NCBI GenBank assembly: GCA_947068385.1
Contig: CAMTBF010000010.1
Coordinates: 1 to 19,302, forward strand
Source: an uncultured Lachnospiraceae bacterium
GTDB taxonomy: Bacteria; Bacillota; Clostridia; Lachnospirales; Lachnospiraceae
Direction of reading: 5' to 3'
DNA: 19,302 bases
Both the position numbers and the translations under genes were made by a program. How positions within the stretch are numbered: position 1 is the stretch's first letter; each line of letters starts with the position of its first letter. Positions 4,199-19,302 of this stretch are shown piece after piece. The notes beneath the pieces were generated by a model that did no database searches, was not told the DNA's origin, and was given only the letters and a program-made list of their open reading frames with translations.

Positions 4199-5194
4199 CT
4201 ACCCGGCTTTCACGTCATTGGGGCTTTCCTTCCCTTCCATATAATCCATGGCGTTGCGCAGCGTGGTGGCGGCGATGGCCCCCAGGGCCTCCCTGGTGAA
4301 GAACCCCTGATGGGAGGTGATCATCACGTTGGGGAAAGACAATAGCCTTGCCGTGGTGGAGTGCTCCAGGATTTCGTCCGACCGGTCCTCGAACACATTG
4401 TTGGTCTCCTCCTCGTACACGTCCAGGCCCACCCCCGCGAACTTGTGCATGCGGATGCCCTCGATCAGGTCGTCGGTCTTCACCAGGGCGCCTCTGGAGG
4501 TGTTCACCAAAATGACCCCGTCCTTCATCTGCCGGATGGTGTCGATGTTGATGATATGGTAGGTGGAGTCCATCAGCGGGCAGTGCAGGGAAATGACATC
4601 GCTGTCAGAAAGGAGCCGCTCCAGGGGCACGTACTCCACGAAGTCTTTCAGGGCTTCGTTCTGGTACACGTCATAGGCGATGACTTTCATGCCGAAGCCC
4701 CGGCAGATGCGGCACATGGCGGCGCCGATTTTCCCGGTGCCGATGATGCCGGCGGTCTTCTCGTAGAAGTTGAAGCCCATGAGCCCGCTCAGGCTGAAAT
4801 CGTTCTCCCGCACCTTATTGTAGGCCTTGTAGAGGCGGCGGTTGCTGGCCAGCGCCAGGGCCATGGCATGCTCCGCCACGGCCTCCGGGGAGTAGCCGGG
4901 GACGCGCATGACGCGGATACCGTATTTTTTTGCGGTGTCCAGGTCCACATTGTTGAAGCCCGCGCAGCGCATGAGGAGCAGGGAAATTCCCTTCTCATGG
5001 AGAATCTCCATGGTCTGGGTGCCGATGTCGGAGCTGACGAAGGCGCAGACGGCATCGAAGCCCTCCGCCAGGGCCGCGGTGCGGGGATCCAGGTCGGATT
5101 TTGTGTACTCGATGGTGATGCTTTGGTAATCCTTCAGGGTGTCCTGGAAGGATTCCTTGTCATAGCTTTTGGTGTCGTAGAACAGGATTTTCAT
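4199..5194 (-). CDS. ldhA: D-lactate dehydrogenase (D-2-hydroxyacid dehydrogenase family)
   Basis: A 331-residue protein, the normal length for LdhA-type enzymes. It reduces pyruvate to D-lactate with NADH in the cytoplasm, a fermentative sink for reducing power. Visible features are the NAD-binding motif IIGTGKIG (residues ~150-157), Arg234 in NTSRGALV, the acidic cluster DVYEEE (258-263) that supplies the catalytic Glu, and His295 in ITSHQGFFT. These are the Arg/Glu/His triad of the family at the spacing expected for LdhA. I chose ATG 5194 because AGAGGAG lies 7 bases upstream; the open frame continues to 5338, but the extra residues are low-complexity and overlap the upstream gene. It lies 31 bases after the 111-residue gene and is probably cotranscribed with it. 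A different 2-hydroxyacid substrate is possible but less likely. Confidence 0.9.
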   Translation of the reverse strand: MKILFYDTKSYDKESFQDTLKDYQSITIEYTKSDLDPRTAALAEGFDAVCAFVSSDIGTQTMEILHEKGISLLLMRCAGFNNVDLDTAKKYGIRVMRVPGYSPEAVAEHAMALALASNRRLYKAYNKVRENDFSLSGLMGFNFYEKTAGIIGTGKIGAAMCRICRGFGMKVIAYDVYQNEALKDFVEYVPLERLLSDSDVISLHCPLMDSTYHIINIDTIRQMKDGVILVNTSRGALVKTDDLIEGIRMHKFAGVGLDVYEEETNNVFEDRSDEILEHSTTARLLSFPNVMITSHQGFFTREALGAIAATTLRNAMDYMEGKESPNDVKAG

Positions 5195-5225
5195 AGTGGT
5201 CTCCTCTCTTTTTCGGATATATCTG

Positions 5226-5561
5226 TCAATTCCAGTATGTGCTGGAGCTGCTGACGATTTTCGTCTCCCCATCCTCCGTTGTGGAATAGATCCTGGTGGT
5301 CCCCCACCACTGGGCGCTTGTGTCGCCCTCCCTGACATCGTAGGAATAGGACGCCTCCACGCTCAGCCCGGGATGCTTTTTCACAAGGGCTTCAAAGGCC
5401 CTGGCGATTGCTTCCCCGCTGGTGTCCAATGAGGCGGTGAGCACGGTGCCCGAGCGCTGCCATGAGAGCGCCGCGTCCGGGAATTCCCGGGAGAAATAAG
5501 CCTCCACGCTGTCGAAGACTGGGGAAGGGTCTTTTTCGTGGGTACAGATTAAGATGTCCAT
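5226..5561 (-). CDS. Unrecognised 111-residue soluble protein
   Basis: I do not recognise this family. The protein starts MDILICTHEKDPSPVFDSVE and ends DGETKIVSSSSTYWN. It has no membrane segment, signal peptide or cysteine pair. An amphipathic segment (GEAIARAFEALVKKHPG) is followed by alternating strands (LSVEASYSYDVR, QWWGTTRIYS), suggesting a small alpha/beta fold. ATG 5561 is preceded by GGAGGG at 4-5 bases; an upstream in-frame ATG at 5612 lies close to the -10 element and has no ribosome site. It precedes ldhA by 31 bases on the same strand and shares its promoter, which hints at a role in or alongside fermentation, but nothing in the sequence shows one. Confidence 0.6.
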   Translation of the reverse strand: MDILICTHEKDPSPVFDSVEAYFSREFPDAALSWQRSGTVLTASLDTSGEAIARAFEALVKKHPGLSVEASYSYDVREGDTSAQWWGTTRIYSTTEDGETKIVSSSSTYWN

Positions 5562-5654: not shown

Positions 5655-5683
5655 TTGACAGATTGACGGCCGACGGATATGAT
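5655..5683 (+). promoter_or_regulatory. Promoter of the GH125 gene
   Basis: A perfect TTGACA (5655-5660), a 17-base spacer and TATGAT (5678-5683) lie about 60 bases before the GH125 start. No LacI-type palindrome overlaps it. An imperfect inverted repeat (TCCGCCCCTTT at 5637-5647, AAAGGGCGGA at 5699-5708) brackets the promoter. Confidence 0.75.
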
Positions 5684-5743: not shown

Positions 5744-7039
5744 ATGACGATACCGGAGGCATTGAAGAACAGAGCAAAGAAGCTGGAGGCCTATTACCAG
5801 GCCCACTACAGCCCGCTGGCGCCGTTGGCCGCCCAGTGTTTCCTGAACACCATGGAGACCACGGTGAAGCAGTCGGAGGACGGAGGGTACTTCGTCATCA
5901 CCGGCGACATCCCCGCCATGTGGCTGCGGGATTCCGCGGCCCAGGTGAGGCCCTATGTGAAGTATGCCGGAGAGGACGGCCAGCTCCAGGAGATCCTGGA
6001 GGGCATCATCGCCAGGCAGGCGAAGATGGTCTGCGTAGACCCCTATGCCAATGCATTCAACGAAAGCGCCAACGGGGCAGGGGCGGGATACGAGGACGAG
6101 ACCCTGGAGAACGCCCATGTGTGGGAGCGCAAGTATGAGGTGGACTCCCTCTGCGCCCCCCTTTACCTGGGATACTATTACTGGAAGGAGACGGGGATCG
6201 GCAGGATATTTACGGAAGAGTTCCATGAGATGATCCGGGAGATCGTACACACCTTTACCGTGGAGCAGGACCACAGGAACTCCCCCTACTTCTTCCGGCG
6301 CTACAACTGCGTGAAGACGGACACCCTGCCCTGCAAGGGGAAGGGCCGTCCCGTGAACGTCACGGGCATGACCTGGTCGGGCTTCCGCCCCTCGGACGAT
6401 ACCTGCTGCTTCGGCTACCTGATTCCCTCCAACATGATGGCTGTGAAAGCCCTGGAGTACGCGGAGGAGATTTGCAGGGAGTGCCTGGGGGACGAGGCCC
6501 TGGCGAAAGAGTGCCGGGAGCTGGCTGAGGAGATCCGGGACGGCATCGAGACCTATGGGGTGGTGGAGCATCCCAAGTACGGGAAGATATACGCCTACGA
6601 GACGGACGGCTTCGGCAACCATATCCTGATGGACGATGCCAATTCCCCCAGCCTGCTGGCCATGCCTTATCTGGGATATTGCGATAAGGATGATGCGCTT
6701 TACCGGAATACCAGAAGCTTCCTCCTGTCGGGGGACAACCCCTACTATTACGAGGGCAGCCAGGCGAAGGGCATGGGGAGCCCCCATACCCCGAAAGGCT
6801 TCGTATGGCACATCGGCATCACCATGCAGGCATTGACCTCCGGTGACAGGGAAGAGATACTGCAGTGCCTGGACATGCTGGCAAAGACCCACGCCGGGAC
6901 CAACTACATGCACGAGTCCTTCGACCCCTCCGCGCCGGAGGAGTTCACCAGGCCCTGGTTCGCCTGGGCCAACACCCTGTTCGCCGAGCTGCTGGACAGG
7001 CTGATGGAGGAGGATTTCTTCGGAGAGAGGGAAATCTGA
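5744..7039 (+). CDS. GH125 exo-alpha-1,6-mannosidase
   Basis: A 431-residue protein, the usual length for glycoside hydrolase family 125 (formerly DUF1237). The family removes non-reducing alpha-1,6-linked mannose by a metal-independent inverting mechanism. Hallmarks are GDIPAMWLRDSAAQVRPY (residues ~55-72), WERKYEVDSLCAPLYL, SGFRPSDD with Asp218/219, AMPYLGYCDKDD, and MHESFDPSAPEEFTRPWFAWAN with Glu391. From memory, the characterised Clostridium perfringens enzyme uses an Asp near 220 and a Glu near 393 as acid and base, which fits this spacing. There is no signal peptide, so it acts in the cytoplasm on imported mannosides, for example N-glycan fragments. GGAGG lies 6 bases before the ATG. 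It has its own promoter and stands just upstream of an oligosaccharide importer. A 39-bp piece of its 3' end recurs at 18534-18572. Confidence 0.93.
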   Translation: MTIPEALKNRAKKLEAYYQAHYSPLAPLAAQCFLNTMETTVKQSEDGGYFVITGDIPAMWLRDSAAQVRPYVKYAGEDGQLQEILEGIIARQAKMVCVDPYANAFNESANGAGAGYEDETLENAHVWERKYEVDSLCAPLYLGYYYWKETGIGRIFTEEFHEMIREIVHTFTVEQDHRNSPYFFRRYNCVKTDTLPCKGKGRPVNVTGMTWSGFRPSDDTCCFGYLIPSNMMAVKALEYAEEICRECLGDEALAKECRELAEEIRDGIETYGVVEHPKYGKIYAYETDGFGNHILMDDANSPSLLAMPYLGYCDKDDALYRNTRSFLLSGDNPYYYEGSQAKGMGSPHTPKGFVWHIGITMQALTSGDREEILQCLDMLAKTHAGTNYMHESFDPSAPEEFTRPWFAWANTLFAELLDRLMEEDFFGEREI

Positions 7040-7078
7040 GGAAGAGCAGAAAGCAAACAGCATAAGGAAAGAAAAGGA

Positions 7079-7105
7079 CAGGAGCTGCTTCGGCGGCTCC
7101 TGTTT
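7079..7105 (+). terminator. UUCG-capped hairpin after GH125
   Basis: CAGGAGCTGC (7079-7088), loop TTCG and GCGGCTCCTG (7093-7102) form a 10-bp stem with one G-T pair, capped by the very stable C(UUCG)G tetraloop and followed by only three T residues. It may terminate weakly or protect the 3' end of the GH125 message. GCAAACAG (7053-7060) can also pair with CTGTTTGC (7100-7107), overlapping the hairpin's right arm. From 7103 to 7334 the sequence is strongly AT-rich and contains no gene. Confidence 0.5.
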
Positions 7106-7264
7106 GCATGAGGAGAAAAACCGGCCCTCCCTTTCAGAAGTGTAAAATATTACATATAAGGATTTAGAATGAAATATACTACATTTTGTAGAGAAAAAAT
7201 GTACAAAAGATGACATGGAAAATTTAGCATATGTAACAAAACAACATAAAGAGACGAAACTATG

Positions 7265-7293
7265 TTGACAAATAGCACTTAAAATGGTATATA
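7265..7293 (+). promoter_or_regulatory. Promoter of the ABC importer operon
   Basis: A perfect TTGACA (7265-7270), a 17-base spacer ending TGG, and TATATA (7288-7293) combine a consensus -35 with an extended -10. Transcription should start near 7300, exactly at the left edge of the palindromic operator. The promoter rules out the in-frame ATG at 7284 as the start of the first permease. Confidence 0.8.
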
Positions 7294-7300
7294 TAGGATA

Positions 7301-7314
7301 TGTAAACGTTTACA
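7301..7314 (+). promoter_or_regulatory. LacI/CcpA-type operator TGTAAACGTTTACA
   Basis: A perfect 14-bp palindrome with a central CpG, the form of operators bound by LacI-family repressors. It also fits the CcpA cre consensus (TGWAANCGNTNWCA). It covers about +1 to +14 of the predicted transcript, where a bound repressor would block initiation or early elongation. The LacI-family gene ~3.6 kb downstream is the obvious candidate; CcpA encoded elsewhere is the alternative. I found no second copy near the other promoters of the window. Confidence 0.75.
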
Positions 7315-7334
7315 CCAAAAGAGAGGAGAAGAGG

Positions 7335-8273
7335 ATGAAAACAAAGAATCTGCCAAAGCAGCCATGGAAGAAAACACTGAAAAAAGACCGCAAATTCCTG
7401 ATCATGTGTCTGCCGGCAATCGTCTTTTTCCTGATATTCGCATACCTGCCCATGCCGGGAATCTGGGTGGCGTTCGTAAGGTTCGACTACGCCAAGGGCA
7501 TCTTCGGCAGTCCCTTCGTAGGGCTGAGCAATCTGAAGTTCATTGCGATGTCAGGAAAGCTGGGGATGCTGGTGAGGAACACGATCCTCTACAATGTGGG
7601 CTTCATCGCCACCAGCACAGTCATGCAGATCCTGATCGCGCTGCTGTTCAATGAGCTTACCAACCGGGCGTTCCGCAAATACGCCCAGTCCTTTATGATA
7701 CTGCCCAACTTCATATCCTATGTGCTGGTGGGCGTATTCAGCTTCGTGATCTTCAACAACACCAACGGCATCCTGAACACGATCCTGAAGGCGTTCGGGG
7801 CCAGCCCCATCAACGTGTATGAAAAGGCCGCCGCGTGGCCCCTGATTCTGGTCCTGATCAACCTCTGGAAAGGCTCGGGCTACGGTTCAATCGTATACTT
7901 CGCGGCATTGATGGGGATGGACAGGGAGATGCTGGAAGCGGCCAAGGTGGACGGCGCCACCACCATCCAGAGGATCCGCTACATCACGCTTCCTTCTCTG
8001 CGGCCTACGATCATCATCCTATTGCTTTTGTCCCTGGGCGGCATCCTGCACGGCAACTTCGACCTGTTCTACAATGTGGTGGGGAGCAACAATGTCCTGC
8101 TGCAGAACAGTACGGACGTGCTGGAGACCTTTATCTTCCGGGCCATGGTCAGCAACTCCAATTTCAGCACCGCGGCCGCCGTGTCCTTCGTGCAGTCCGT
8201 GTTCGGCCTGATCGTAGTGCTGGCGACGAACTTCGTGGTCAAGAAGGTGGAGCCGGATTACGCGCTGTTCTAG
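7335..8273 (+). CDS. ABC sugar importer permease, LplB type
   Basis: A 312-residue inner-membrane protein with about six hydrophobic segments, starting with LIMCLPAIVFFLIFAYLPM after a basic N-terminus. The cytoplasmic EAA loop that contacts the ATPase is present as LEAAKVDGATTIQRIRYITL (residues ~197-216), and the C-terminus ends KKVEPDYALF. It is one half of the membrane channel of a family-1 carbohydrate importer of the LplB/YteP group, often used for oligosaccharides derived from host or plant glycans. ATG 7335 follows AGAGGAG. The partner permease begins 28 bases after its stop, and the lipoprotein follows. No ATPase gene is present, as is usual for systems that share an MsmK/MsmX-type ATPase encoded elsewhere. 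Confidence 0.92.
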   Translation: MKTKNLPKQPWKKTLKKDRKFLIMCLPAIVFFLIFAYLPMPGIWVAFVRFDYAKGIFGSPFVGLSNLKFIAMSGKLGMLVRNTILYNVGFIATSTVMQILIALLFNELTNRAFRKYAQSFMILPNFISYVLVGVFSFVIFNNTNGILNTILKAFGASPINVYEKAAAWPLILVLINLWKGSGYGSIVYFAALMGMDREMLEAAKVDGATTIQRIRYITLPSLRPTIIILLLLSLGGILHGNFDLFYNVVGSNNVLLQNSTDVLETFIFRAMVSNSNFSTAAAVSFVQSVFGLIVVLATNFVVKKVEPDYALF

Positions 8274-8301
8274 GCGTGGACGCGAGGAAGGAGGAATGAG
8301 C

Positions 8302-9210
8302 ATGAGTGAACATAAAAATAAAGTAAGGCTGGATTTTTCCGGCAGAGTCATCCAGGTGGCGGGGTATCTCTTCATCGCATTGTTCGCCCTGTCCTGCCTG
8401 ATTCCCTTTATCATGATGCTGGCGGCTTCCTTTGAGAATGAGAGGACGCTGGCCCTGGAGGGATATTATCTGTGGCCCAGGGACTTCTCCCTGGATGCCT
8501 ACAAGGCCATCTTCGGGCCGGGGAGCGAGATCCTGGGATCCTTCGTGCTGACATTGATCCTGACGGCAATCGGCACCTCCCTGGGGCTGTTCTTGACGGC
8601 GCTGACCGGATACGCCCTGCAGCGCCCGGACTTCAGGTGCAGGAACGCGGTGTCCCTGTACCTGTACATAACCACGCTGTTTTCAGGCGGGCTGGTGGCC
8701 TTCTACCTGCTGATCACCCGCTACCTGGGGCTTAAGAATTCCTATCTGGCCATTCTGCTGCCCCCGCTGATGAGCTCCTGGAACATCATCATGATGAAGA
8801 ACTTCATCAAAAACAGCATACCGCACACTGTCAGCGAGGCGGCGGAGATCGACGGGGCGTCCCCCTTCGTGACCTTCATCCGGGTGATCCTGCCCATGTC
8901 CAAGCCGGCCCTGGCCACGATCGGCCTCTTCATCGGCCTGGGCTACTGGAACGAATGGTACAATGCCATGCTGTTTCTGGATTCCAGCATGAAGTACCGC
9001 CCCATGCAATTGATTCTGTACAATCTGATCAACCAGGCATCCTATCTGAAGAACTCCCTGGCGGCCCAGAACATACCGGCCCAGGAGATGCCTTTGGAGA
9101 CGGTGAAGATGGCCACGGCGGTGATCTCCACGATTCCGATCATCATGGCATATCCCATGGTGCAGAAGTACTTCGTGTCCGGCATCACGGTGGGATCCGT
9201 AAAAGGATGA
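8302..9210 (+). CDS. ABC sugar importer permease, YtcP/AraQ type
   Basis: A 302-residue inner-membrane protein, the second channel subunit. Hydrophobic segments begin with VAGYLFIALFALSCLIPFIM, and the EAA loop is SEAAEIDGASPFVTFIRVIL (residues ~175-194). The C-terminal MAYPMVQKYFVSGITVGSVKG is typical of the YtcP group. AAGGAGG at 8288-8294 is 7 bases before ATG 8302 but only one base before the alternative ATG 8296, so 8302 is preferred. It is cotranscribed with the other permease and the binding protein. Confidence 0.92.
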   Translation: MSEHKNKVRLDFSGRVIQVAGYLFIALFALSCLIPFIMMLAASFENERTLALEGYYLWPRDFSLDAYKAIFGPGSEILGSFVLTLILTAIGTSLGLFLTALTGYALQRPDFRCRNAVSLYLYITTLFSGGLVAFYLLITRYLGLKNSYLAILLPPLMSSWNIIMMKNFIKNSIPHTVSEAAEIDGASPFVTFIRVILPMSKPALATIGLFIGLGYWNEWYNAMLFLDSSMKYRPMQLILYNLINQASYLKNSLAAQNIPAQEMPLETVKMATAVISTIPIIMAYPMVQKYFVSGITVGSVKG

Positions 9211-9272
9211 CCGTTAATAAAAAGAAGCGCAACCAATACACCATAAAATAGGTGAAAATAAGGAGGAAAATC

Positions 9273-10958
9273 ATGAAAAATCTGAAAAAATGGACGGCAA
9301 TGGCAGTATCCGCATGCATGGCGGCAGGCCTTCTGGCAGGCTGCGGCGGCACGGAGGGAACGGGCGGCCAGGACGCGGAACAGCTGGAGGAGTCCTCCCA
9401 GGGCAGCCAGGGGGATGCCGGGGAGAGCGGCGGCGAGACGTCGGAGGAATCCCAGGACTCCCAGGCATCCGGAGAAGCCTACAACGGCGTCAGCGGCAAC
9501 ACCCCGGTGGTGGACGGGGAGATCGACACCTCCCAGTTCGTCACGGTGAAGATGCTGGTGCTGGGGGATCCCCCGGCGGGCGACACGGACAAGAAGATGC
9601 TGGAGGTGCTGAACCCCATCCTGGAGGAGCGGATGAACGCGAACCTGGAGATGACCTGGATCGAGTGGAACAATTACGAGACGAAGTACCAGATGGAGCT
9701 GGTGTCCGGCACCCCCTATGACCTGGTCTTCACCTCCTCCACCTGGCTGAACCTGTGGGACAATGTGTCCAAGAACGCCTTCATGGACATCACGGATCTC
9801 CTGCCCTACTACGCGCCCCAGCTTTGGGCGGACACCACCGAGGGCGAGTGGGCGCAGTGCAGATATGACGGACGGATCTACGCCCTTCCCGAGCACAGGA
9901 TGTGGCAGCTCTCCACGCCGGGATTCGCCTATCGGCTGGACTGGGCCAGGGAATTCGGGCTGGACAGGGTGGCGTCCATGGACGACCTGGAGAAGTACTG
10001 CGACGGCATCCTGGAGAAGAAGGCGGGGGTCATCCCCTTCAATGTCAGCGGCTCCATCAACTCCACGGAATTCTACACCCTGTGGATCAACCAGGACACC
10101 GACTATGTGTTCGGCCCCGGAACCGTGGGCATGAACGCGCCTACGGCCAACGTGAGCCTGGACGACTGCTGGACCATCGCCTCCCCGATATTCGACGACG
10201 GATTTGTAGACTTCGCGATCAAGATGAAGGAATGGGGCGACAGGGGCTACTGGCCTACGGACGTGCTCAGCGCCACCATCGACGCGGAGACCATGTTCCT
10301 CTCCGGCCAGAGCGGCCTGTACCACGCCAATGTGGCGAACCTTTACGGGCTCTATGAGAAGATGGAAAAGGAGGATCCGGATGCCGAGATAGACATCTTC
10401 TTCGACGCGGAGAAGCGGGGCAAGGTGGTGGCGGACTCCGTGACCCAGGATGCCTGCGCTGTATCCGCCTACGCGGCGAACCCGGAGCGCGCCCTGATGA
10501 TGTACGACCTGTTCCAGTACGACGAGGAAATCTACCACCTGACCCAGTACGGCGTGGAGGGCGTGAACTACGCGGTGGACGAGGACGGATACAGGGTGAA
10601 GCCGGAAGGGTACGACGACCAGATGGACGCCTATTATTGGGATATGTGGAGCACCAGGAACGACAGCCTGAACATTCCGGAGTTCAATCCGAACCAGAGC
10701 AAGATAGACGAGATCAATGCCAAGATTAAGCCCTGGTCAGTGACCTCCCCCTGGGGTTCCTTCATGCTGGACACCTCCATGGTGGAGAACGAGATCACGG
10801 CGATCAACGAGGCTGCCACCACATGGCTGCCGGCCATCCAGTTCGGCAAGGCCGGAGACCCGGAGGCGGCAGTGGAGGAGCTTCGAAGCGCCCTCAAGGG
10901 AGCGGGGATCGATGCGTACATAGAGGAAGTGAACCGCCAGATGTCCGTGATGAAATAA
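9273..10958 (+). CDS. Extracellular oligosaccharide-binding lipoprotein of the ABC importer
   Basis: A 561-residue lipoprotein. The signal peptide ends in a lipobox (LLAGC, Cys24), so the mature protein is anchored to the outer face of the membrane. A ~60-residue Gly/Ser/Glu/Gln-rich linker follows (residues ~25-85), then the binding domain, beginning TVKMLVLGDPPAGDTDKKML. The C-terminal ~140 residues, with AANPERALMMYDLFQYDEEI and a DUF3502-like end, are typical of the large LipO-type binding proteins that pair with LplB/YtcP permeases. It would capture a sugar oligomer and deliver it to the permeases; the ligand is unknown. AAGGAGG stands 6 bases before ATG 9273; an in-frame GTG at 9252 lies upstream of this ribosome site. 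It converges with the LacI gene, only 8 bases apart, with no hairpin between. Confidence 0.92.
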   Translation: MKNLKKWTAMAVSACMAAGLLAGCGGTEGTGGQDAEQLEESSQGSQGDAGESGGETSEESQDSQASGEAYNGVSGNTPVVDGEIDTSQFVTVKMLVLGDPPAGDTDKKMLEVLNPILEERMNANLEMTWIEWNNYETKYQMELVSGTPYDLVFTSSTWLNLWDNVSKNAFMDITDLLPYYAPQLWADTTEGEWAQCRYDGRIYALPEHRMWQLSTPGFAYRLDWAREFGLDRVASMDDLEKYCDGILEKKAGVIPFNVSGSINSTEFYTLWINQDTDYVFGPGTVGMNAPTANVSLDDCWTIASPIFDDGFVDFAIKMKEWGDRGYWPTDVLSATIDAETMFLSGQSGLYHANVANLYGLYEKMEKEDPDAEIDIFFDAEKRGKVVADSVTQDACAVSAYAANPERALMMYDLFQYDEEIYHLTQYGVEGVNYAVDEDGYRVKPEGYDDQMDAYYWDMWSTRNDSLNIPEFNPNQSKIDEINAKIKPWSVTSPWGSFMLDTSMVENEITAINEAATTWLPAIQFGKAGDPEAAVEELRSALKGAGIDAYIEEVNRQMSVMK

Positions 10959-10966
10959 GGGGGCTC

Positions 10967-12019
10967 CTACAGATGCTTCCCGCTGCTTTCGCGGATGATT
11001 AGGTCGGGGTAGAGGTCGGGAGGCTCCGGGGCCTGGGTTCCCTGGATCATGCTCAGGAGCAGCCGGATGACATGGAGGGCCAGCCGCTCGGTGTGCCTCT
11101 CTAAGCTGGTCAGCCGGGGCGTCAGGAAGTTGCCGTCCATGAACTGGTCGCAGCTGATCAGCGCGATGTCGTCAGGCACGGAGAGGAAATAGTCGGATAT
11201 GGCCCGGATGGCGCCGATGGCGATATTGTCGTTCATGGCCAGGATGGCGGTCACGGGCCTGTCCAGCTCCAGGAGCTTCTTGGCGGCATTGTATCCGTCC
11301 GGCAGATAGTAGTCGGAGACGGATACCAGGTCGGGGTCCGTATCCAGGCCCAGCTGCTCCAGCACGGCGCGGTAGGTCTGGAGGCGGCTCTCCGTGATGA
11401 TGATGCCAGGCTCCCCTCCCGCGAAGCCGATGCGGCAATGCCCCAGGGAAGCCAGATAGCGGACGGCGATGACCATCCCCTTTTCGTGCTCCTTATTGAC
11501 GAAGCAGCAGGGGATGTCAGGAAGGGTCTGGCCGATGACCACCACCGGGATGGCCTTTGCCAGCTTTTCCAGAGCCGCTTTGTAGGAATCGCTGACCTCG
11601 CACAGGTCGATCTGCCCCCCGGCGATGATGACGCCGTCCACCTTTTTATCCAGGATCATCTGGAAATAATCCTCTTCCGTCTCCTGGCCGCCGCTCTTAT
11701 GGGAGGTGGCGGTAAAGGAAGTGATGCACAGGATGATGGAATAATGGGCCTCATGGGCGGCGCGCTCGATGATGCCCACCAAGGTGGAGAAGTAGGGGTT
11801 GGTGATGTTGGGGATGATCATCCCTAACGTCCTGGACTGGCGCAGGATCAGTCCCTGGGCCAGCGGGTTCGGACAGTAGCCATACTTGCGGACGACCTCC
11901 TCCACCCGGGCCTTCGTCTTGGGGGATACGGGGCCGGAACCGCTGAGCACCCTGGACACGGTGGCAGTGGACACGCCGCTTTCTTTTGCGATTTCTACGA
12001 TGGTGACATTTCGGCTCAT
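10967..12019 (-). CDS. LacI/GalR-family transcriptional repressor
   Basis: A 350-residue protein. The N-terminal helix-turn-helix and hinge are canonical: VTIVEIAKESGVSTATVSRV (residues ~5-24), then KARVEEVVRKYGYCPNPLAQ. The periplasmic-binding-protein-like effector domain begins RTLGMIIPNITNPYFSTLV and continues through GVIIAGGQIDL and AILAMNDNIAIGAIRAI. It should bind a palindromic operator and release it on binding a sugar; the palindrome at 7301-7314 is the likely target. AAAGGA stands 6 bases before ATG 12019. An in-frame ATG at 12058 overlaps the predicted -10 element and is unlikely. The gene converges with the importer and diverges from the catabolic operon, so it is well placed to control both. 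Confidence 0.93.
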   Translation of the reverse strand: MSRNVTIVEIAKESGVSTATVSRVLSGSGPVSPKTKARVEEVVRKYGYCPNPLAQGLILRQSRTLGMIIPNITNPYFSTLVGIIERAAHEAHYSIILCITSFTATSHKSGGQETEEDYFQMILDKKVDGVIIAGGQIDLCEVSDSYKAALEKLAKAIPVVVIGQTLPDIPCCFVNKEHEKGMVIAVRYLASLGHCRIGFAGGEPGIIITESRLQTYRAVLEQLGLDTDPDLVSVSDYYLPDGYNAAKKLLELDRPVTAILAMNDNIAIGAIRAISDYFLSVPDDIALISCDQFMDGNFLTPRLTSLERHTERLALHVIRLLLSMIQGTQAPEPPDLYPDLIIRESSGKHL

Positions 12020-12056
12020 ATACAATCCTTTCAAAAACAATTCATCAGCGATGTCC

Positions 12057-12062
12057 ATTATA
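12057..12062 (-). promoter_or_regulatory. -10 element of the LacI-family gene
   Basis: A perfect TATAAT on the minus strand (12062-12057). The -35 at 17 bases is poor (TTTCTT), so the promoter is probably weak or activated. No palindrome overlaps it, so autoregulation is not evident. I could not identify a good rightward promoter for the catabolic operon in the same gap (12063-12142). Confidence 0.5.
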
Positions 12063-12142
12063 ACAGATTATGACGAAAAAAGAAATGAGGGAAAGAGAAA
12101 TTATTCAACCAGTATGCAACCATATTCCAATGGAGGGGAACA

Positions 12143-12355
12143 GTGAACCGGGCAGATTATAAAAAGCTACTGACAGAGATCATGGATGAAATCGGGGAGC
12201 CGGAGGGGACTTTCCAGAGCGCTTTCGGGGCAAAGTCGGAGAAGGAGATGGAGGAGATCCGCTATATATCCGCCATAGCCCTGTACGCGGTGGACAGATA
12301 CTATTCCGGCCTGACGAGGCTGGCGTTCGAGAACAGGGAGAACGACAGGAAGTGA
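12143..12355 (+). CDS. Unrecognised 70-residue protein, first gene of the catabolic operon
   Basis: I do not recognise this family. The frame opens with GTG at 12143, 6-7 bases after a strong ribosome site (GGAGGGG). The protein is mostly helical in appearance (NRADYKKLLTEIMDEIGEP, then EKEMEEIRYISAIALYAVDR), with a basic tail and no membrane segment or cysteines. Its TGA overlaps a GTG at 12352 that opens the next frame, a sign of packing within one operon. Coding potential is supported by the ribosome site, operon position and high-GC third positions like those of its neighbours. It could be a small accessory subunit for the following oxidoreductase-like protein; that is inference. Confidence 0.6.
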   Translation: MNRADYKKLLTEIMDEIGEPEGTFQSAFGAKSEKEMEEIRYISAIALYAVDRYYSGLTRLAFENRENDRK

Positions 12356-12396
12356 CAGAAAACGACAGGAGACGGACGGAGGGCGGAGGCTTGAAG

Positions 12397-13251
12397 ATGA
12401 AGATTGGATTTGTGGATTATTATCTGGACAACTGGCATGCCGATTACTACCCGGGATTTATGCGGGAGGCGATCGCGAAATACGGCTATGACGCAGCGGT
12501 GACCCATGCCTATGCCCTGACCCAGCGCCCTGGCGGGGAGACCTCCGGACAGTGGTGCCAAAAGCGCCATATGCGCCTGGCGGCGGACATGGAGGAATTG
12601 ATCCACAGCGTGGACGCCATCATGGTGATTGCCGCGGACAATTCCGCCTGGCATGAGGAGGTCTGCCAGGCCCCTCTGGCCAGCGGGAAGCCGGTGTTCG
12701 TGGACAAGACCTTTGCCCCGGACCTGGAGGCCGCGAGGAGGATGTTCGGACGGGCGAAGCAGTACCATACGCCGGTGATGTCCACCTCCGCCCAGCGGTA
12801 CTGCGCCAGCATCATGGACTATCTGGAGCGGGAGCGGGGGAAGACCAGGTTCATGTCCACGGTAGGCCCCCATGACCTGAGTAATTACGCGGTGCATCAA
12901 TTCGAGCCCATCGTGGCCGTGATGGGGGTGGGCGTGAAGCGGGTGAAGGCCTTTGCGGTAGGGAGCATGGTGACGCAGCTGATCATGGATTACGGGGACG
13001 GCAGGATGGCCAGCTTTACCCAGTCCCCCAACCCTTACGCGGAGTTTAACTTCCAGGTGTCGGACGGGGAGCGGGGGGAGCGTCTGGACAGCTCGGATTA
13101 TTATATCAATGCCATGAAGGCCATCCTGGATTTCTTTGAGACGGGAATCTCCCCTGTGCCGGAGGAGGAGACCATGGAGGTATTGGCCTTGATCGACGCG
13201 GCGAAGCGGGCCAGGCAGAGCCCGGATGTATGGCTGGAACTGAGGAGGTAG
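12397..13251 (+). CDS. Gfo/Idh/MocA-like oxidoreductase (short, atypical)
   Basis: A 284-residue protein. The first half matches the nucleotide-binding half of the Gfo/Idh/MocA family: HSVDAIMVIAADNSAWHEEV, then ASGKPVFVDKTFAPDLEAAR with Asp103-Lys104 at the position of the usual EKP lysine, and TPVMSTSAQRY. Family members oxidise or reduce sugars with NAD(P). The N-terminal GxGxxG dinucleotide motif is missing: the first strand reads MKIGFVDYYLDNWHADYY. The protein is also shorter than the ~330-390 residues typical of the family. It may use the cofactor differently or have another role. ATG 12397 has GGAGG at 7 bases; a GTG at 12352, overlapping the previous stop, would add 15 residues. The ThuA-domain gene begins 3 bases after its stop, as in rhizobial thuA-thuB. 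Confidence 0.8.
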   Translation: MKIGFVDYYLDNWHADYYPGFMREAIAKYGYDAAVTHAYALTQRPGGETSGQWCQKRHMRLAADMEELIHSVDAIMVIAADNSAWHEEVCQAPLASGKPVFVDKTFAPDLEAARRMFGRAKQYHTPVMSTSAQRYCASIMDYLERERGKTRFMSTVGPHDLSNYAVHQFEPIVAVMGVGVKRVKAFAVGSMVTQLIMDYGDGRMASFTQSPNPYAEFNFQVSDGERGERLDSSDYYINAMKAILDFFETGISPVPEEETMEVLALIDAAKRARQSPDVWLELRR

Positions 13252-13254
13252 AGG

Positions 13255-14070
13255 ATGGATAAGATAAGACTGCACTATCTGGTGGGGGATGTGCACATGG
13301 GCGGCCATGACGTGCAGCGGGTGGCGGGGAACAACAAGATTCTGCTGGACGCGGCGGGCTGCTTCGACGTCCTTATGGTGTGCGACGATTCCGATGTGGG
13401 GGACATGACATTCGATCAGTATTTCCAAGGGAACAGGATGGAGGAAGGCCAGGCATTCGTGTTCGACTGTGGGAACCATCGCTTCAATGTAAAGCCGGAG
13501 CAGGAGCGCTTCGAACGCGCCATTGCCGCCGGGGCGGGCTGCGTCTTCCTCCACGGGCAGCAGGTCTGCTACTGGAAGGAGGCGGGCATGGCGGCATGGG
13601 AGGAGGTGGAGAAGATGCAGGGGCTGTTGTGGCGGAATGCCACACAGCACGGCGACTACGGGGAGGCCCATGTCGCCATCCGGAAAAAGCAGCATCCCAT
13701 CATGCAGGGCCTGACGGATTTCGACACCAAGGACGAGATCTTCTGCCGGTGCGAGAACGTGCACCAGGTAGACCTGGAGGTGCTGGCCACGGCGTACTCG
13801 GATCCCCAGGTGGTCTCCAGGCATGGCCTCAGGGGGACGGGGCAGGAGGAGCCCGTAGCCGTCACGGGAAGGTACGGGAAGGGGCGGATCTACAATCAGC
13901 TCCTGGGCCATGTGTGGCCCTATTATACCGGGCACGGCCTGGGCGAGGACACCATGCTCAGCTTCCGGCCCAGGCAGTTCCGGCAGATGTTCGTCAGGGC
14001 CTGCGAGTGGGTGGCCACGGGGGAGGTGGGGAGGACGCTTCCCTTTGACGGAAAGGCGAAGCTAGTCTGA
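13255..14070 (+). CDS. ThuA-domain (trehalose-utilisation-like) protein
   Basis: A 271-residue protein of the ThuA family, with a class I glutamine-amidotransferase-like fold. Recognisable parts are IRLHYLVGDVHMGGHDV at the start, GAGCVFLHGQQVCYW (~residues 92-106), HPIMQGLTDFDTKDEIFCR and GRYGKGRIYNQLLGHVWPYY near the C-terminus. In rhizobia ThuA acts with the Gfo/Idh-type dehydrogenase ThuB in using trehalose and related disaccharides through 3-keto derivatives. The same pairing is seen here, with the two genes 3 bases apart. GGAGG is provided by the end of the preceding gene. The chemistry of ThuA is not well established, so the role is inferred from context. The usual amidotransferase Cys-His-Glu triad is not apparent. 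Confidence 0.82.
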   Translation: MDKIRLHYLVGDVHMGGHDVQRVAGNNKILLDAAGCFDVLMVCDDSDVGDMTFDQYFQGNRMEEGQAFVFDCGNHRFNVKPEQERFERAIAAGAGCVFLHGQQVCYWKEAGMAAWEEVEKMQGLLWRNATQHGDYGEAHVAIRKKQHPIMQGLTDFDTKDEIFCRCENVHQVDLEVLATAYSDPQVVSRHGLRGTGQEEPVAVTGRYGKGRIYNQLLGHVWPYYTGHGLGEDTMLSFRPRQFRQMFVRACEWVATGEVGRTLPFDGKAKLV

Positions 14071-14103
14071 AAGAAATCGGGGAAAAGGAGAAGAAGCGGA
14101 TCG

Positions 14104-15033
14104 ATGAGGACATGTATAGCAGTGGATATCGGGGGGACAAAGATGCTGATCGCCCAGGTGCGGGAAGATGGAAAGGTAGTCAATCAGAAACGCTATCCCA
14201 CAGGGAAGCTGGAAAAGCAGGAGGTGCTGGAAAAGCTGCTCTGGGGCGTCCGCGACTATGAGTCGGAAATCGGCTGGGAGGGCGGAGAGCGGCCCGGGCA
14301 CATGGGCATCGGGGTGAATGGGGTCATCGATCCGGTGAAGGGAATCTGGAAGAAGCAGGAGGAGTCGGACAGGGAGGTTCCGGTGGCGGCCTTTGTGGAG
14401 AGGGAGCTGGGCGTGGCCTGCCATGTGGACAATGACGTGAAGTCCGCGGCAATCGCCGAGAATGTCTTCGGAGCCGGCAGGGGCTGCCGCGATATGGTCT
14501 ATATCAACCTGGGCACGGGGCTGGCCGCCGGGATCATCGCCAATGGCAAGCTGATCCGGGGCACGGACGGATTCGCCGGGGAGATCGGCTTCATGAACCT
14601 GACGGGAGGGGAGGAACCCAGGATAGAGCTGAGGGCCTCCGGCATGGGGATGTGCCATCAGGCCTTGGCTTTGTCGGCCCAGTACCCGGACTCTGCCCTG
14701 ACGGCCAGGGCGGACGGCGGGGTCAGGGGCCAGGACATCTTCGAGCTGGCCCAGGGAGGGGACGGGCTGGCGGCCCGGATCCTGGAGGAGATGACAGGGA
14801 TGATAGGGCTGGCCATTTCCAACCTGACCTGCGTGCTCTCGCCGGAGGTGGTGATCCTGGGCGGGGGATTGATCTCCCAGCAGCGGCTGCTGGATGGGAT
14901 CATAGAGGCGGTGTCCCCCAAGGCGAAGCAGCATCTGGAGAGGGGCGTGATCCTCACAGGGCTGGATCCCAACTGCGCGGGGCTCATGGGGGCCGCGGCC
15001 ATCGCCTTTGGATATCAGGAGAGATATTTTTAA
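14104..15033 (+). CDS. ROK-family sugar kinase-like protein without the zinc motif
   Basis: A 309-residue protein without a DNA-binding N-terminus, so kinase-like rather than a repressor. ROK features are IAVDIGGTKMLIAQV (phosphate loop, residues 5-19), GIGVNGVIDP, HVDNDVKSAAIAE (with the catalytic-base Asp position), and MVYINLGTGLAAGIIANGKL. ROK kinases phosphorylate glucose, mannose, GlcNAc or ManNAc at C6 with ATP. The zinc site is missing: GEIGF (residues 159-163) has Phe163 where the zinc- and substrate-binding His normally stands, and the CGCxGC cysteines are absent. Activity or substrate may therefore differ. The start ATG 14104 has its best ribosome site (AAGGAG) about 12 bases away, longer than ideal. 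The SIS gene follows 35 bases after its stop. Confidence 0.85.
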   Translation: MRTCIAVDIGGTKMLIAQVREDGKVVNQKRYPTGKLEKQEVLEKLLWGVRDYESEIGWEGGERPGHMGIGVNGVIDPVKGIWKKQEESDREVPVAAFVERELGVACHVDNDVKSAAIAENVFGAGRGCRDMVYINLGTGLAAGIIANGKLIRGTDGFAGEIGFMNLTGGEEPRIELRASGMGMCHQALALSAQYPDSALTARADGGVRGQDIFELAQGGDGLAARILEEMTGMIGLAISNLTCVLSPEVVILGGGLISQQRLLDGIIEAVSPKAKQHLERGVILTGLDPNCAGLMGAAAIAFGYQERYF

Positions 15034-15068
15034 GAAGCGGTGCCGGTGCACCGGGCTGGGAGGAGACT

Positions 15069-16136
15069 ATGGCTACGATAATGGAATGTATTGAGAGGAT
15101 TCCCTCCGTGATGGAGGGCATCCTGGAGCGGCAGGGGGAGAGCTTTGGCGGACTTGCGGAATATATGGGGGACGCTGTGGAGAGGCTGGACGAGGTGGTG
15201 TTCATAGGTTCCGGCACCTCCAACACGGCGGCCATGACTTCACAGGCCTTTGTGGAGAAGGTGTCGGGGCTGCGCACCAAGGTGGTGCTGCCCAACGATT
15301 ACATCAGGGAGGGGCGTGTATACAATCCCCATGCCCTCCATGTCTTTACCTCCCAGACAGGCACCTCCACGGTGGTCTGCCGCCTGATGGAGCGCATGCT
15401 GGGGGAAGGGCTTTCCTGCGTGGCCCTGACGGAGGGGGCGGATACGCCGCTGGCAAGGCTTTCGCCCTGCCATGTGTGCCTGAACTGCGGGAAGGAAGAA
15501 TTCCTCATGCGCACCATCGGCTATGCCGCCAGCGTCCTGAACCATATGCTCCTGGGGCTGGAGCTGGGGCTGGCGCGGAACAGCCTGTCCCCGGAGGGAT
15601 ACGAGGGGTACAGGCGCCAGGCCATGGCCGTCCCGGACAGCCACAGGGCCATTGCGGCACAGGCCAGGGAATGGTTCGAGCGGAACAAAAGACAGATCAT
15701 GCGGTCGGGGAGCGTGATCTTCACAGGGGCGGGGGCGCTGTACGGCGTGGCCCTGGAGGCGGCGGTGAAATTCTGGGAGATGCCCCAGGTGACCAGCGTG
15801 GGATACGAGCTGGAGGAGGGGATGCATGGCCCCAACTACGGCTATGACGGGAGCCACTGCCTGGTCATCCTGAACGACGGGGGCAGCGAGTCCGCAAAGG
15901 CGCTCTCCCTGGGGCGGTACGTGAAGGAGGTGCTGCACAATGGCTTCGTGGTGGGGGCGGAGGCTTTGGACGGATCCGACCTTGTGCTGGATTTAAAGGG
16001 CGGGGAGTTCGCCTGCCTGGAGCTTAGCGCGGTGCCCCAGGTGATGGCCTACTGCCTGGCGGTGGACATGAGCCGGGACATCTCCAGGCCCATAGACCAC
16101 AGCGACATGTACCGTTACTTCAATACCCACGGCTGA
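15069..16136 (+). CDS. Double-SIS-domain sugar-phosphate isomerase/deaminase-like protein
   Basis: A 355-residue protein with two SIS domains, the layout of the GlmS isomerase half and of AgaS/FrlB-type sugar-phosphate enzymes. The first domain shows VVFIGSGTSNTAAMTSQAFV (residues ~43-62) and the phosphate-binding loop FTSQTGTST (93-101). The second shows VIFTGAGALYGVALEAAVKF and the catalytic-type stretch YELEEGMHGPNYGY. It lacks the glutaminase domain of GlmS. Such enzymes isomerise or deaminate amino-sugar or ketosamine 6-phosphates in the cytoplasm. Here it would act after the ROK protein, and its presence hints that an amino sugar or keto sugar phosphate is an intermediate. GGGAGGAG lies just before ATG 15069; the frame is open further upstream but that part lies inside the ROK gene. 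GH9 begins 19 bases after its stop. Confidence 0.87.
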   Translation: MATIMECIERIPSVMEGILERQGESFGGLAEYMGDAVERLDEVVFIGSGTSNTAAMTSQAFVEKVSGLRTKVVLPNDYIREGRVYNPHALHVFTSQTGTSTVVCRLMERMLGEGLSCVALTEGADTPLARLSPCHVCLNCGKEEFLMRTIGYAASVLNHMLLGLELGLARNSLSPEGYEGYRRQAMAVPDSHRAIAAQAREWFERNKRQIMRSGSVIFTGAGALYGVALEAAVKFWEMPQVTSVGYELEEGMHGPNYGYDGSHCLVILNDGGSESAKALSLGRYVKEVLHNGFVVGAEALDGSDLVLDLKGGEFACLELSAVPQVMAYCLAVDMSRDISRPIDHSDMYRYFNTHG

Positions 16137-16155
16137 GGGCCGGAAAGGAGAGCAT

Positions 16156-18531
16156 ATGCGGGAGACATTTCGGGAGGAGCTGATCCGGACAGGGTATGTC
16201 CATTCCCCGCTGCCGCTGCACCGGGAGCGCTCGCTGGAGGCGGAGCAGGCGGCAAAGGAGGTGCTGGAGAGCCGGGCAATCTGGGACGGGGCGGATCCGT
16301 CCGAAGGGATACAGCCGGTTCTGTCAGGCATCGGCACCATGGAGATAGAAAAGTGCGGGGGCCAGGGCGGCGGGGACGCCATCCGCATCACCGCGCCCAC
16401 GGCCAGGGATTCGCTGCCCTATGAGGACGGGGCCACGGCGGCGCAGTTTCGCAGCGTCCTCACCTTCTCCCTGCCGGGGGAGAGCTGGGAGGACTACAAC
16501 CGCGTAAGCATATGGGTGAAGCCGGATTCCATGGGGAGCCACAGCGTGCACCTGCGGGTGCACATCCGCAATGAGGGCCGCAGGCCCGTGCCGGACATCT
16601 ACGGCAGGGAGGGGCAGCACCTGGCCAACCTGGTGAACCATGAATGGAACCAGGTGATCTGGGAGTTCGACGCCCTCCCCCGGGACCGGGTCACGGCCCT
16701 TACGGTGTCCATGGACGCGGACGGGCGCGATACCTCCACGGGGGAGGAGTTTTGCTTCGCGTTCTCTTCTTTCGAGCTGCAGAGGGTGAAGCGCGCGGGG
16801 AAGGAGAGGGGCTGGGACTGCGAGGCCGGGCGGATGGCATACTCCATGTCCGGATACCATTGCCTGGGAAAGAAGACGGCCATCGCAGGCACGGGCCAGG
16901 AGACATTTTCCCTGCTGGACGAAGAGGGAAGGACGGTTCTGCGGAAAGCCGTCCGGAGGGTGGACACCGGGAGAGGGAGCTTTTCCGTGCTGGATTTCAG
17001 CGAGGTGGAGGAAGCGGGATATTACCGCCTGTGCAGCGGGGATGTGGTGACGGCCCCCTTTGAGATCGGGGGGAAGGTCATGGAGAGCGCGGTCTGGAAG
17101 GCGCTGAACTTCATATTCTGCGAGCGCTGCGGCTATCCGGTCCCGGGGAAGCACGGGCGGTGCCATACGGATGTGCTGGCCAGGCATAAGGGCTGCCTGA
17201 AATCCTTTGGCGGCGGCTGGCATGACGCGGGGGACATGTCCCAGCAGATGCTGCAGACGGCGGAGGTGGCCCAGGAGCTCCTGGAGCTGGCGGGCAGGGT
17301 GGAGGACGACTGCCTGCTGCGCCACCGGCTGACGGAGGAGGGGCTCTGGGGGCTGGAGTTCACCCTGAACAGCCGCTTCGGCGACGGATACCGGGCCAGC
17401 AGCGCAGGGATTGGCCTGTGGACGGACAATCTGATTCATACCATAGACGATGTGGAGGCCAGGGTGCACAACCAGGCCTACCAGAACTTCTTCTGCGGGG
17501 CGGTGGAGGCCCAGGCCGGGTTCCTGCTGAGGGACTTCGAGCCGGAGCTGGCCTGGAAGTGCGTGCAGGCGGCAAAGGAGGATTACCGCTTCGCGAGGGA
17601 GCGCTTTGCCGAGAAGGGCATGGAGAAGCCGGTCATGTGGGAGCATACGCTGCACAGCGGGCTGTCCCAGTATTATGCCGCCGCGGCATGGGCCGCCGCT
17701 TCCATCTGCGTAAGCGGGGGAGATCCCTTTTTCGCCGGGGAGGCGAAAGAGTACGGCAGGAGGCTCCTGGCCTGCCAGGAGACGGGGACGGAGGGGGTTC
17801 CCATGCGGGGGTTCTTCTACCGGGACGAGAGCCACCGCACCATTGTGCATTATGCCCATCAGGGGCGGGAGCATTCCTTTGTGCAGGCGCTGGAGATGCT
17901 CTGCAGGGCATTCCCGGATTCCCCAGAGCGCCCGGGCTGGGAGAGGGGGATGGCGCTGTACGGGGAGTACCTGAAGGCCCTGTATGGGATGGCCACGCCC
18001 TATGGGATGCTGCCTGCCGGACTGTATTCCCTTGCGGAGGCGGAGGATGCCGAGACTTTCGGGCGGTTGCATCTGCTGGCGGACTATGAGGCTGAGAAGC
18101 CCAACTATGAGGCCCAGGTGAGGGCGGGCATCCCCCTGGGGAACGGCTATTACGTGAGGATGTTCCCCGTATGGTTCTCCTTTCGGGGGAACGCGGCGAT
18201 CATGCTGTCCATGGGGAAGGCCGCGGCCATTGTGGGAAGGTATTTCGGCGATGGGAAGCTTCTGGAGATCGCCAGGGAGCAGCTTTACTGGATGGTGGGG
18301 AAAAATCCTTTCTGCCAGTCCCTGGTCTATGGAGAGGGGGAGCGGTACTGCCAGCAGGATGCCAATTATCCCGGGGAGATGACGGGGGAGATGCCCGTGG
18401 GCATCCAGACCTGGGAGAACGAGGACGAGCCCTACTGGCCGGCGGGCAACAACGCCACCTACAAGGAGGTCTGGCTGACCACGGCGGGCCGCTTCCTCTC
18501 CATTGCGGCGGAGCTGTACCCTCATATCTAG
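16156..18531 (+). CDS. Cytoplasmic GH9-type glycoside hydrolase
   Basis: A 791-residue protein. Residues ~1-215 resemble a galactose-binding-like jelly roll (QFRSVLTFSLPGESWEDYNR, IWVKPDS). An Ig-like domain of the CelD N-terminal type spans ~225-310 and ends GYYRLCSGDVVTAPFEIG. The rest is an (alpha/alpha)6 GH9 catalytic domain. GGGWHDAGDMS gives Asp357 and Asp360, the family's nucleophilic-water-binding pair. NNATYKEVWL near the C-terminus gives Glu771 at the general-acid position. GH9 enzymes are inverting beta-glycosidases, mostly endoglucanases, with some exo-beta-glucosidases and exo-glucosaminidases. The lack of a signal peptide, and its place last in an operon fed by an importer, argue for an exo-acting intracellular enzyme on short oligosaccharides. 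AAGGAG lies 8 bases before the ATG. Assignment to GH9 is firm; substrate is unknown. Confidence 0.87.
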   Translation: MRETFREELIRTGYVHSPLPLHRERSLEAEQAAKEVLESRAIWDGADPSEGIQPVLSGIGTMEIEKCGGQGGGDAIRITAPTARDSLPYEDGATAAQFRSVLTFSLPGESWEDYNRVSIWVKPDSMGSHSVHLRVHIRNEGRRPVPDIYGREGQHLANLVNHEWNQVIWEFDALPRDRVTALTVSMDADGRDTSTGEEFCFAFSSFELQRVKRAGKERGWDCEAGRMAYSMSGYHCLGKKTAIAGTGQETFSLLDEEGRTVLRKAVRRVDTGRGSFSVLDFSEVEEAGYYRLCSGDVVTAPFEIGGKVMESAVWKALNFIFCERCGYPVPGKHGRCHTDVLARHKGCLKSFGGGWHDAGDMSQQMLQTAEVAQELLELAGRVEDDCLLRHRLTEEGLWGLEFTLNSRFGDGYRASSAGIGLWTDNLIHTIDDVEARVHNQAYQNFFCGAVEAQAGFLLRDFEPELAWKCVQAAKEDYRFARERFAEKGMEKPVMWEHTLHSGLSQYYAAAAWAAASICVSGGDPFFAGEAKEYGRRLLACQETGTEGVPMRGFFYRDESHRTIVHYAHQGREHSFVQALEMLCRAFPDSPERPGWERGMALYGEYLKALYGMATPYGMLPAGLYSLAEAEDAETFGRLHLLADYEAEKPNYEAQVRAGIPLGNGYYVRMFPVWFSFRGNAAIMLSMGKAAAIVGRYFGDGKLLEIAREQLYWMVGKNPFCQSLVYGEGERYCQQDANYPGEMTGEMPVGIQTWENEDEPYWPAGNNATYKEVWLTTAGRFLSIAAELYPHI

Positions 18532-18533
18532 GA

Positions 18534-18572
18534 TGGGCCCACGCCCTGTTCGCCGAGCTGCCGGACAGGCTG
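18534..18572 (+). pseudogene. 39-bp remnant of a GH125 gene 3' region
   Basis: Starting two bases after the GH9 stop, these 39 bases match 6965-7003 inside the GH125 gene at 36 of 39 positions, including an 18-base exact run (CCCTGTTCGCCGAGCTGC). In the GH125 frame the fragment reads WAHALFAELPDRL against WANTLFAELLDRL; all three differences change the amino acid. Similarity stops abruptly on both sides. It looks like the scar of a deleted or recombined GH125 paralogue. Confidence 0.7.
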
Positions 18573-18576
18573 CCCT

Positions 18577-19143
18577 TTAGTCCGCCCGGAATCCCCTCTC
18601 CAGGATCCGGCCGCAGATGTCCGCCATGGCCTCCGGGCTGGGCGGATCCGGCTGGGCCAGCCAGGCCTCTATCACCCCGATGCAGCCGGACACGGCGAAG
18701 GCCTCCAGGTAGGAGCCGTCCGTGGCTGCCCGGCTGGCCGCCAGGATGCTGTCCAGGCGCTCTTTCACCAGATTCTTCATCCGGTTCAGGAAGGCCAGGT
18801 CCCCGTGGGGGCCGATCATGGCCCTGGCCACCATCCTGTGCCGCTCCAGGAAGGAGAAGACCTCCAGCAGCGTCACCCGGGGGGCGTGGGCTGCCGGATC
18901 CGGCTTCAGCGTCCGGTCGATGATCTCATGGAATTCCGCGAACAGCTCGTCCTCTATCTGGGACAGCATATCATAGACATCGCTGTAGTGCAGGTAGAAG
19001 GTCCCCCTGTTGATGTCCGCCAGGTCGGCCAGCTCCTTTACGGAGATGTCCTTCACGTCCTTGCTCTCCATCAGCTGCATCAGCCCCTGCAGGAGCAGGG
19101 TCTTGGTCCTCCGGACCCTCCGGTCCGTCTTCGCGTCTGCCAT
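18577..19143 (-). CDS. TetR/AcrR-family transcriptional regulator
   Basis: A 188-residue protein. The N-terminal helix-turn-helix is clear: TKTLLLQGLMQLMESKDVKD, then ISVKELADLADINRGTFYLHYSDVYDML (residues ~35-62), where GTFYLHYSD is the family signature. The C-terminal half (FSFLERHRMVARAMIGPHGD, SGCIGVIEAWLAQPDPPSPE) resembles the TetR_C_33 ligand-binding type. It would repress a nearby gene until a small ligand binds; the target is not in the window and may lie to the right. ATG 19143 is preceded by AGGTGG at about 8 bases; in-frame upstream starts at 19224 would add 27 residues with no ribosome site. It converges on GH9 with a 45-base gap that holds the GH125 remnant. A GC hairpin (CCGGGG/CCCCGG) sits in its leader at 19168-19184. 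Confidence 0.9.
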   Translation of the reverse strand: MADAKTDRRVRRTKTLLLQGLMQLMESKDVKDISVKELADLADINRGTFYLHYSDVYDMLSQIEDELFAEFHEIIDRTLKPDPAAHAPRVTLLEVFSFLERHRMVARAMIGPHGDLAFLNRMKNLVKERLDSILAASRAATDGSYLEAFAVSGCIGVIEAWLAQPDPPSPEAMADICGRILERGFRAD

Positions 19144-19167
19144 AGCGCCGCCACCTTTCCGTAGCCT

Positions 19168-19184
19168 CCGGGGTTCCTCCCCGG
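19168..19184 (-). other. GC-rich hairpin in the TetR gene leader
   Basis: CCGGGG and CCCCGG form a 6-bp all-GC stem around a 5-base loop (AGGAA on the minus strand), about 24 bases before the TetR start. It could shape translation of the leader. The remaining bases to the right edge (19225-19302) show no gene I can support. Confidence 0.35.
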
Positions 19185-19302
19185 GCCATATTTCTAAACA
19201 TTTCATAAATATGCGACAGGTCAAGCCTGAAGTGTCGAGAAAAGCACAGTTTACTCTGAAAGGAGAAAGCAGCGATATCTACTACGATGGGCAAAAGCAT
19301 CA

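Follow-up and report, generated by a model that had tools for sequence, protein, structure and literature searches.

Inserts flanked by the partial duplication of a gene, with gene remnants left at the insert edges, are known, and so is homology-facilitated illegitimate recombination, or additive integration, of foreign DNA. GH125 genes (PF06824), which are central to the locus described here, are known as exo-alpha-mannosidase genes of glycan operons. In the genome of an uncultured Lachnospiraceae bacterium we examined a 39-bp segment that, judging from sequence comparison, is probably the non-functional leftover of the 3' end of a resident GH125 gene, a catabolic operon having presumably entered between this gene and that of a TetR-family regulator.

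The repeated GH125 tail and its surroundings

The window, meaning the whole stretch of 19,302 nucleotides that was analysed, carries a full-length GH125 gene at 5744..7039 on the plus strand (Pfam PF06824, metal-independent alpha-mannosidase, E = 2.2e-158), the tail of which is present twice. On its left, a gene of the D-2-hydroxyacid dehydrogenase family (D2HD; 4199..5338, minus strand; PF02826, E = 2.7e-51) serves as a landmark, its orthologue adjoining GH125 in the related genome G047. On its right lies a block of about 11.5 kb (7040..18533, plus strand) that is missing from the GH125-TetR interval of G047 and of a second relative, G026. The block encodes two ABC permeases, a solute-binding protein, a LacI regulator (minus strand), GFO/IDH/MocA, ThuA, ROK and SIS proteins and, as the last gene of the operon, GH9 (16156..18531, plus strand; PF00759). 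The TetR-family regulator follows on the minus strand (18577..19224 as its longest open reading frame; PF14278).

Between the stop codons of GH9 (TAG, 18529-18531) and TetR, the segment at 18534..18572 (plus strand) matches positions 6965..7003 (plus strand) within the 3' part of the intact GH125 gene at 36 of 39 positions, and the similarity stops abruptly at both ends. The two form an imperfect direct repeat of which 6965..7003 is the left copy. This was the observation from which a sequence-only reading of the locus had started, and its account of the match, from the two-base distance to the GH9 stop to the abrupt ends, proved exact. The repeat is the sole off-diagonal one in the comparison of the window with itself at E ≤ 1e-4 (E = 3.6e-9), and it was recovered with E = 1.4e-8 when positions 18100-19220 were searched against the bacterium's own genome. 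Relative to the local gene, the segment carries A>C, A>G and T>C changes, which in the GH125 frame read N>H, T>A and L>P; that all three are non-synonymous had likewise been correctly noted, and there are no synonymous differences. Read in this frame, the GH125 peptide WANTLFAELLDRL has become WAHALFAELPDRL in the segment.

Several features surround the intact gene. A 12-pair hairpin at 7077-7104 lies 3' of its stop codon (z = -3.16 for 7040-7110) and is absent from the terminator-scan list, and the spacer up to the first permease gene (7040-7283) is A+T-rich, with a G+C content of 0.357 versus 0.602 in GH125 and 0.55 in the permeases. Just upstream of GH125, a promoter-like TTGACA-17-TATGAT (11/12) is found at 5655-5683, in a region holding 3 such sites versus 1.2 expected; given this site, the gene might have a transcript separate from its neighbours. 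As for the insert, no recombinase was found among the 14 window proteins in the Pfam scan (the partial gene at 2-2173 being outside it), and ARAGORN detected no tRNA that could have been a target there; no site-specific element is therefore indicated.

GH125 and TetR in related genomes

In G047 and G026, an orthologous TetR gene sits directly beside GH125, in convergent orientation and with no GH9 operon between the two. G047 (locus L128) shows SPFH, D2HD, GH125 (85%) and TetR (72%) in the order of the window; two further open reading frames lie between SPFH and D2HD, the left flank of the window being otherwise common to both. In G047, GH125 thus has D2HD and TetR as its direct neighbours, with 86 bp and no operon between the GH125 and TetR stops, whereas in the window the GH9 operon occupies its 3' side. 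In G026 (L127), GH125 (87%) and TetR (80%) converge so closely that their stop codons overlap. When 138 genomes of the genus were searched with DNA of the GH9-TetR junction, the closest TetR genes after that of the sister genome, G063, were those of G026 and G047; three candidates were scored per genome, and the absence of TetR elsewhere holds at that sensitivity. Both genes were held by 4 of the 57 loci with GH125 or TetR, all four from G047 and G026, and among 64 GH9 loci TetR adjoined GH9 only in that of the sister (listed twice, as L003 and L069). TetR thus keeps company with GH125, not with GH9.

The side and orientation of the 39-bp segment relative to TetR are those of the intact GH125 in these relatives, a correspondence drawn from two genomes only. 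Counter-evidence comes from G116, which has a close GH125 followed by other DNA and in which the DNA search detected no TetR. Left flanks vary as well, G026 and G063 carrying other operons upstream of GH125, and the genus genomes compared (G000, G063, G026, G047 and G116) consist of many contigs each. Taken together, the comparison suggests that GH125-TetR is the older neighbourhood and that the ~11.5-kb block from permease to GH9 is the newcomer. The sequence-only reading had seen in the segment the scar of a GH125 gene and in TetR a later arrival; a degraded GH125 tail is what we also see, but the convergent GH125-TetR pairs of G047 and G026 speak for the reverse order of arrival.

G063 has GH9 (95%) and the same convergent TetR, and its stop codons of GH9 and TetR are 18 bases apart versus 48 in the window, so that the gap is 30 bp shorter. 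At most 13 bases of the segment are kept there (TGGCCCGATGCCC, itself unlike the window's), too few to be recognised alone. In the window, the stretch that G063 lacks is bounded by GCCCT on either side (18543..18547 and 18572..18576, both plus strand, 29 bp from one repeat to the other), an arrangement that fits a slip deletion in G063 together with the loss of one T. The GH125 protein of G063 is 95% identical to the window's, and its 39 corresponding bases equal those of the local gene at 39/39; it, too, lies beside these ABC permeases, its contig being a different one from that which carries the GH9 end. At four-fold sites (hand-trimmed frames) the sisters differ at 28/175 positions in GH125, 26/373 in GH9 and 4/94 in TetR. 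GH125 is thus more diverged than GH9 or TetR, and the locus may therefore have recombined since.

Source of the segment and competing explanations

Over its 39 bases, the segment is closest to the GH125 genes of the window and G063 (36 identities each), followed by those of G047 (35), G116 (33), G026 (32) and G025 (32). The peptide WANTLFAELLDRL is common to the five closest GH125 genes (window, G063, G026, G116 and G047), and the residues H, A and P of the segment occur in none of the five. All three changes are thus non-synonymous at residues that these five genes share, and the gap is shorter in the sister, both of which are signs of relaxed constraint. The non-synonymous changes had been taken as evidence of a diverged paralogue; since a non-coding relic changes regardless of the code, they are no argument against a local copy, and decaying non-coding DNA would be expected to produce them without any such paralogue. 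A second GH125 of the same genome was rejected as source, because a single copy was found there (581 contigs, 89.5% complete); G063 likewise holds only one (84% complete). Also rejected was the GH125 of Hungatella-type GH9 clusters, whose best 39-mer in two loci reaches 22/39. A degraded tail, left by a GH125 gene that formerly occupied this spot, is the best reading of the segment.

The distribution of GH9 in the genus also speaks for the operon as the newcomer. This GH9 is present at ≥95% identity in 2 of the 138 genomes, its own included, and two more carry one at 46-48%. The same gene order from permeases to GH9 recurs elsewhere in L070 and L100; neither these loci nor their genomes contained a GH125, although both genomes are drafts and the absence is provisional. 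The idea that GH125 had been the last gene of the GH9 operon, and that the segment ties the two enzymes to one substrate, finds no support in these two relatives. Nor did a full GH125 directly follow this GH9 in any of the 64 GH9 loci, which gave no GH125 match at all (best E = 1.6) within flanks of 10 kb at most, many of them shorter and those of 16 loci about 1.5 kb or less. Some genomes are represented by two of these loci (L003 and L069, for example), and the set leaves out the window's own L002, L117-L126 (10 of 58 loci; partial matches of 23-29%), L006-L028 (weak partial matches, E = 1.9e-14 or worse) and L064-L068 (31-37% identity). In L073, a second, more diverged GH9-like stretch stands in tandem after GH9 (10001-14356).

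Beyond the fetched loci, where linkage was taken from coordinates alone, GH125 is present in 12 of the 21 GH9-carrying genome handles searched (G400 and G534 being one genome twice, with identical places). Only in two Hungatella genomes, a distant case, does it follow a related GH9 on the same strand, at a distance of 11.4-11.6 kb. This is just beyond the 10-kb flanks, so that other such loci, for instance L094 and L102 with their similar layout, could hide a GH125. A same-strand series after GH9 ends with GH125 in L174 (596-15676; G544) and L173 (G551), the gene scan covering L174 only; there, the interval between the two genes encodes a binding protein, a permease, GH2, a D-serine-dehydratase-like protein, an amidohydrolase, a RidA-like protein and GH3. 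With 49% identity, the Hungatella GH125 is distant from the local gene, and its two loci contain no 39-mer that exceeds 22/39 against the segment.

These data bear on the explanation that the sequence-only reading had favoured, namely that the operon originally had a diverged GH125 of its own as last gene, after GH9, and that this GH125 was cut to 39 bp on the arrival of TetR next to it. The Hungatella series makes such a layout possible; the 64 GH9 loci without a GH125 match, the poor fit of the Hungatella 39-mers next to the 36/39 of the local gene, and the operon-free GH125-TetR pairs of G047 and G026 nevertheless lead us to consider it improbable. A later templated copy, by which a slip of repair or replication would have placed some 30-39 bp of GH125 between GH9 and TetR once this lineage and that of G063 had parted, could account for the 30-bp shorter gap of the sister and for a match to the local gene that lacks any synonymous change. 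It would, however, have to have landed by chance in the one gap, and in the one orientation, in which a genuine GH125 tail meets TetR in relatives, and the flanking GCCCT repeats are in keeping with a deletion in G063 instead; we hold it to be unlikely, though a little less so than the operon's own GH125.

Least credible of all is that the segment is no relic but a chance match, a product of misassembly or a sequence with a function, for instance a terminator separating convergent genes. The genome is indeed a draft of 581 contigs, but three scattered differences are not what a misjoin would be expected to leave. Chance was rejected on the basis of a control in which 2783 random 39-mers of the window, taken outside GH125 and the segment themselves, were compared with the GH125 gene and reached 28 identities at best, as against 36/39. 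A terminator or RNA element was rejected since positions 18529-18600 fold no better than shuffled sequences (z = 0.65 and 0.19 for the two strands).

Proposed insertion history and comparison with known inserts

In the reading that we prefer, which takes the segment as a relic of the resident gene, the order D2HD, GH125 and TetR, the last two convergent, would be ancestral. The catabolic operon of about 11.5 kb, from ABC permeases to GH9, would then have entered between GH125 and TetR, leaving the intact GH125 on its left and a second copy of the GH125 tail on its right, against TetR. The extreme end of the duplicated tail would have been lost, along with any spacer on the TetR side, and subsequent decay would account for the three changes in the window and the 30-bp shorter gap in G063. 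We infer from the comparison the direction of change, the presence of the full relic in the common ancestor with G063, and a single insertion that made the duplication. As to how the duplication arose, a short duplication of the tail, through homology-assisted or illegitimate joining, is as conceivable as a full second GH125 gene, produced for instance by single-crossover integration and later eroded.

The left joint offers some indications of its own. After the FF motif, the carboxyl end of GH125 differs between the window and G063 (MEEDFFGEREI), G047 (MAEGFFE) and G026 (MEERFFEN), and because of this difference from the relatives the final codons of GH125 may contain the joint. Near and upstream of the first permease gene, the window showed only weak similarity to L070 and L100, too little to place the left edge of the insert.

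The other side of GH125 varies as well. Between D2HD (G063:C2:21024-22393) and GH125, G063 carries an extra operon (L129, G063:C2, 7949-18377) encoding a solute-binding protein, two permeases and GH106-like, BNR-repeat, DHDPS-family and GH42 proteins; no such operon is present in the window or in G047, and no GH125 repeat was found around it. G026 and G116 have in common a GH43-permease block upstream of GH125, with 91% DNA identity over 6.8 kb including GH125. Within this block in G026, a 614-aa protein with no Pfam match is encoded directly upstream of GH125 (L127, 10212-12056). Viewed as a single locus, and as a lead, the surroundings of GH125 in this genus appear to undergo operon turnover. 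More speculatively, it might be a recurrent landing site for sugar-use operons that share it as a homology anchor, the relic being the footprint of one such event; we consider this doubtful.

The relic helps to give the direction in which the neighbourhood changed, from GH125-TetR to the later operon. It also counsels caution against taking the adjacency of GH125 and the GH9 operon as proof of one shared substrate, at a locus where several different sugar operons came to flank the same mannosidase gene on either side. The process itself would be ordinary genome evolution, with an unusually legible insertion footprint.

How closely does the locus resemble the systems known from elsewhere? The intact gene of the window is a full-length GH125 such as those of glycan operons, but in two relatives with the same gene order (L070 and L100) the GH9 operon does not include GH125. 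Homology-facilitated illegitimate recombination differs in that no donor came to light in which GH125 precedes this operon, for which reason the homologous step is only hypothetical here; it could nevertheless yield homologous joining at GH125, an illegitimate joint by TetR and a short duplication. Compared with inserts flanked by gene remnants, the right-hand copy is here cut on both sides and neither a recombinase nor a tRNA was found, whereas the arrangement as a whole agrees: one edge of the insert has the intact gene, the other a truncated 3'-end copy of it, and relatives show an empty site.
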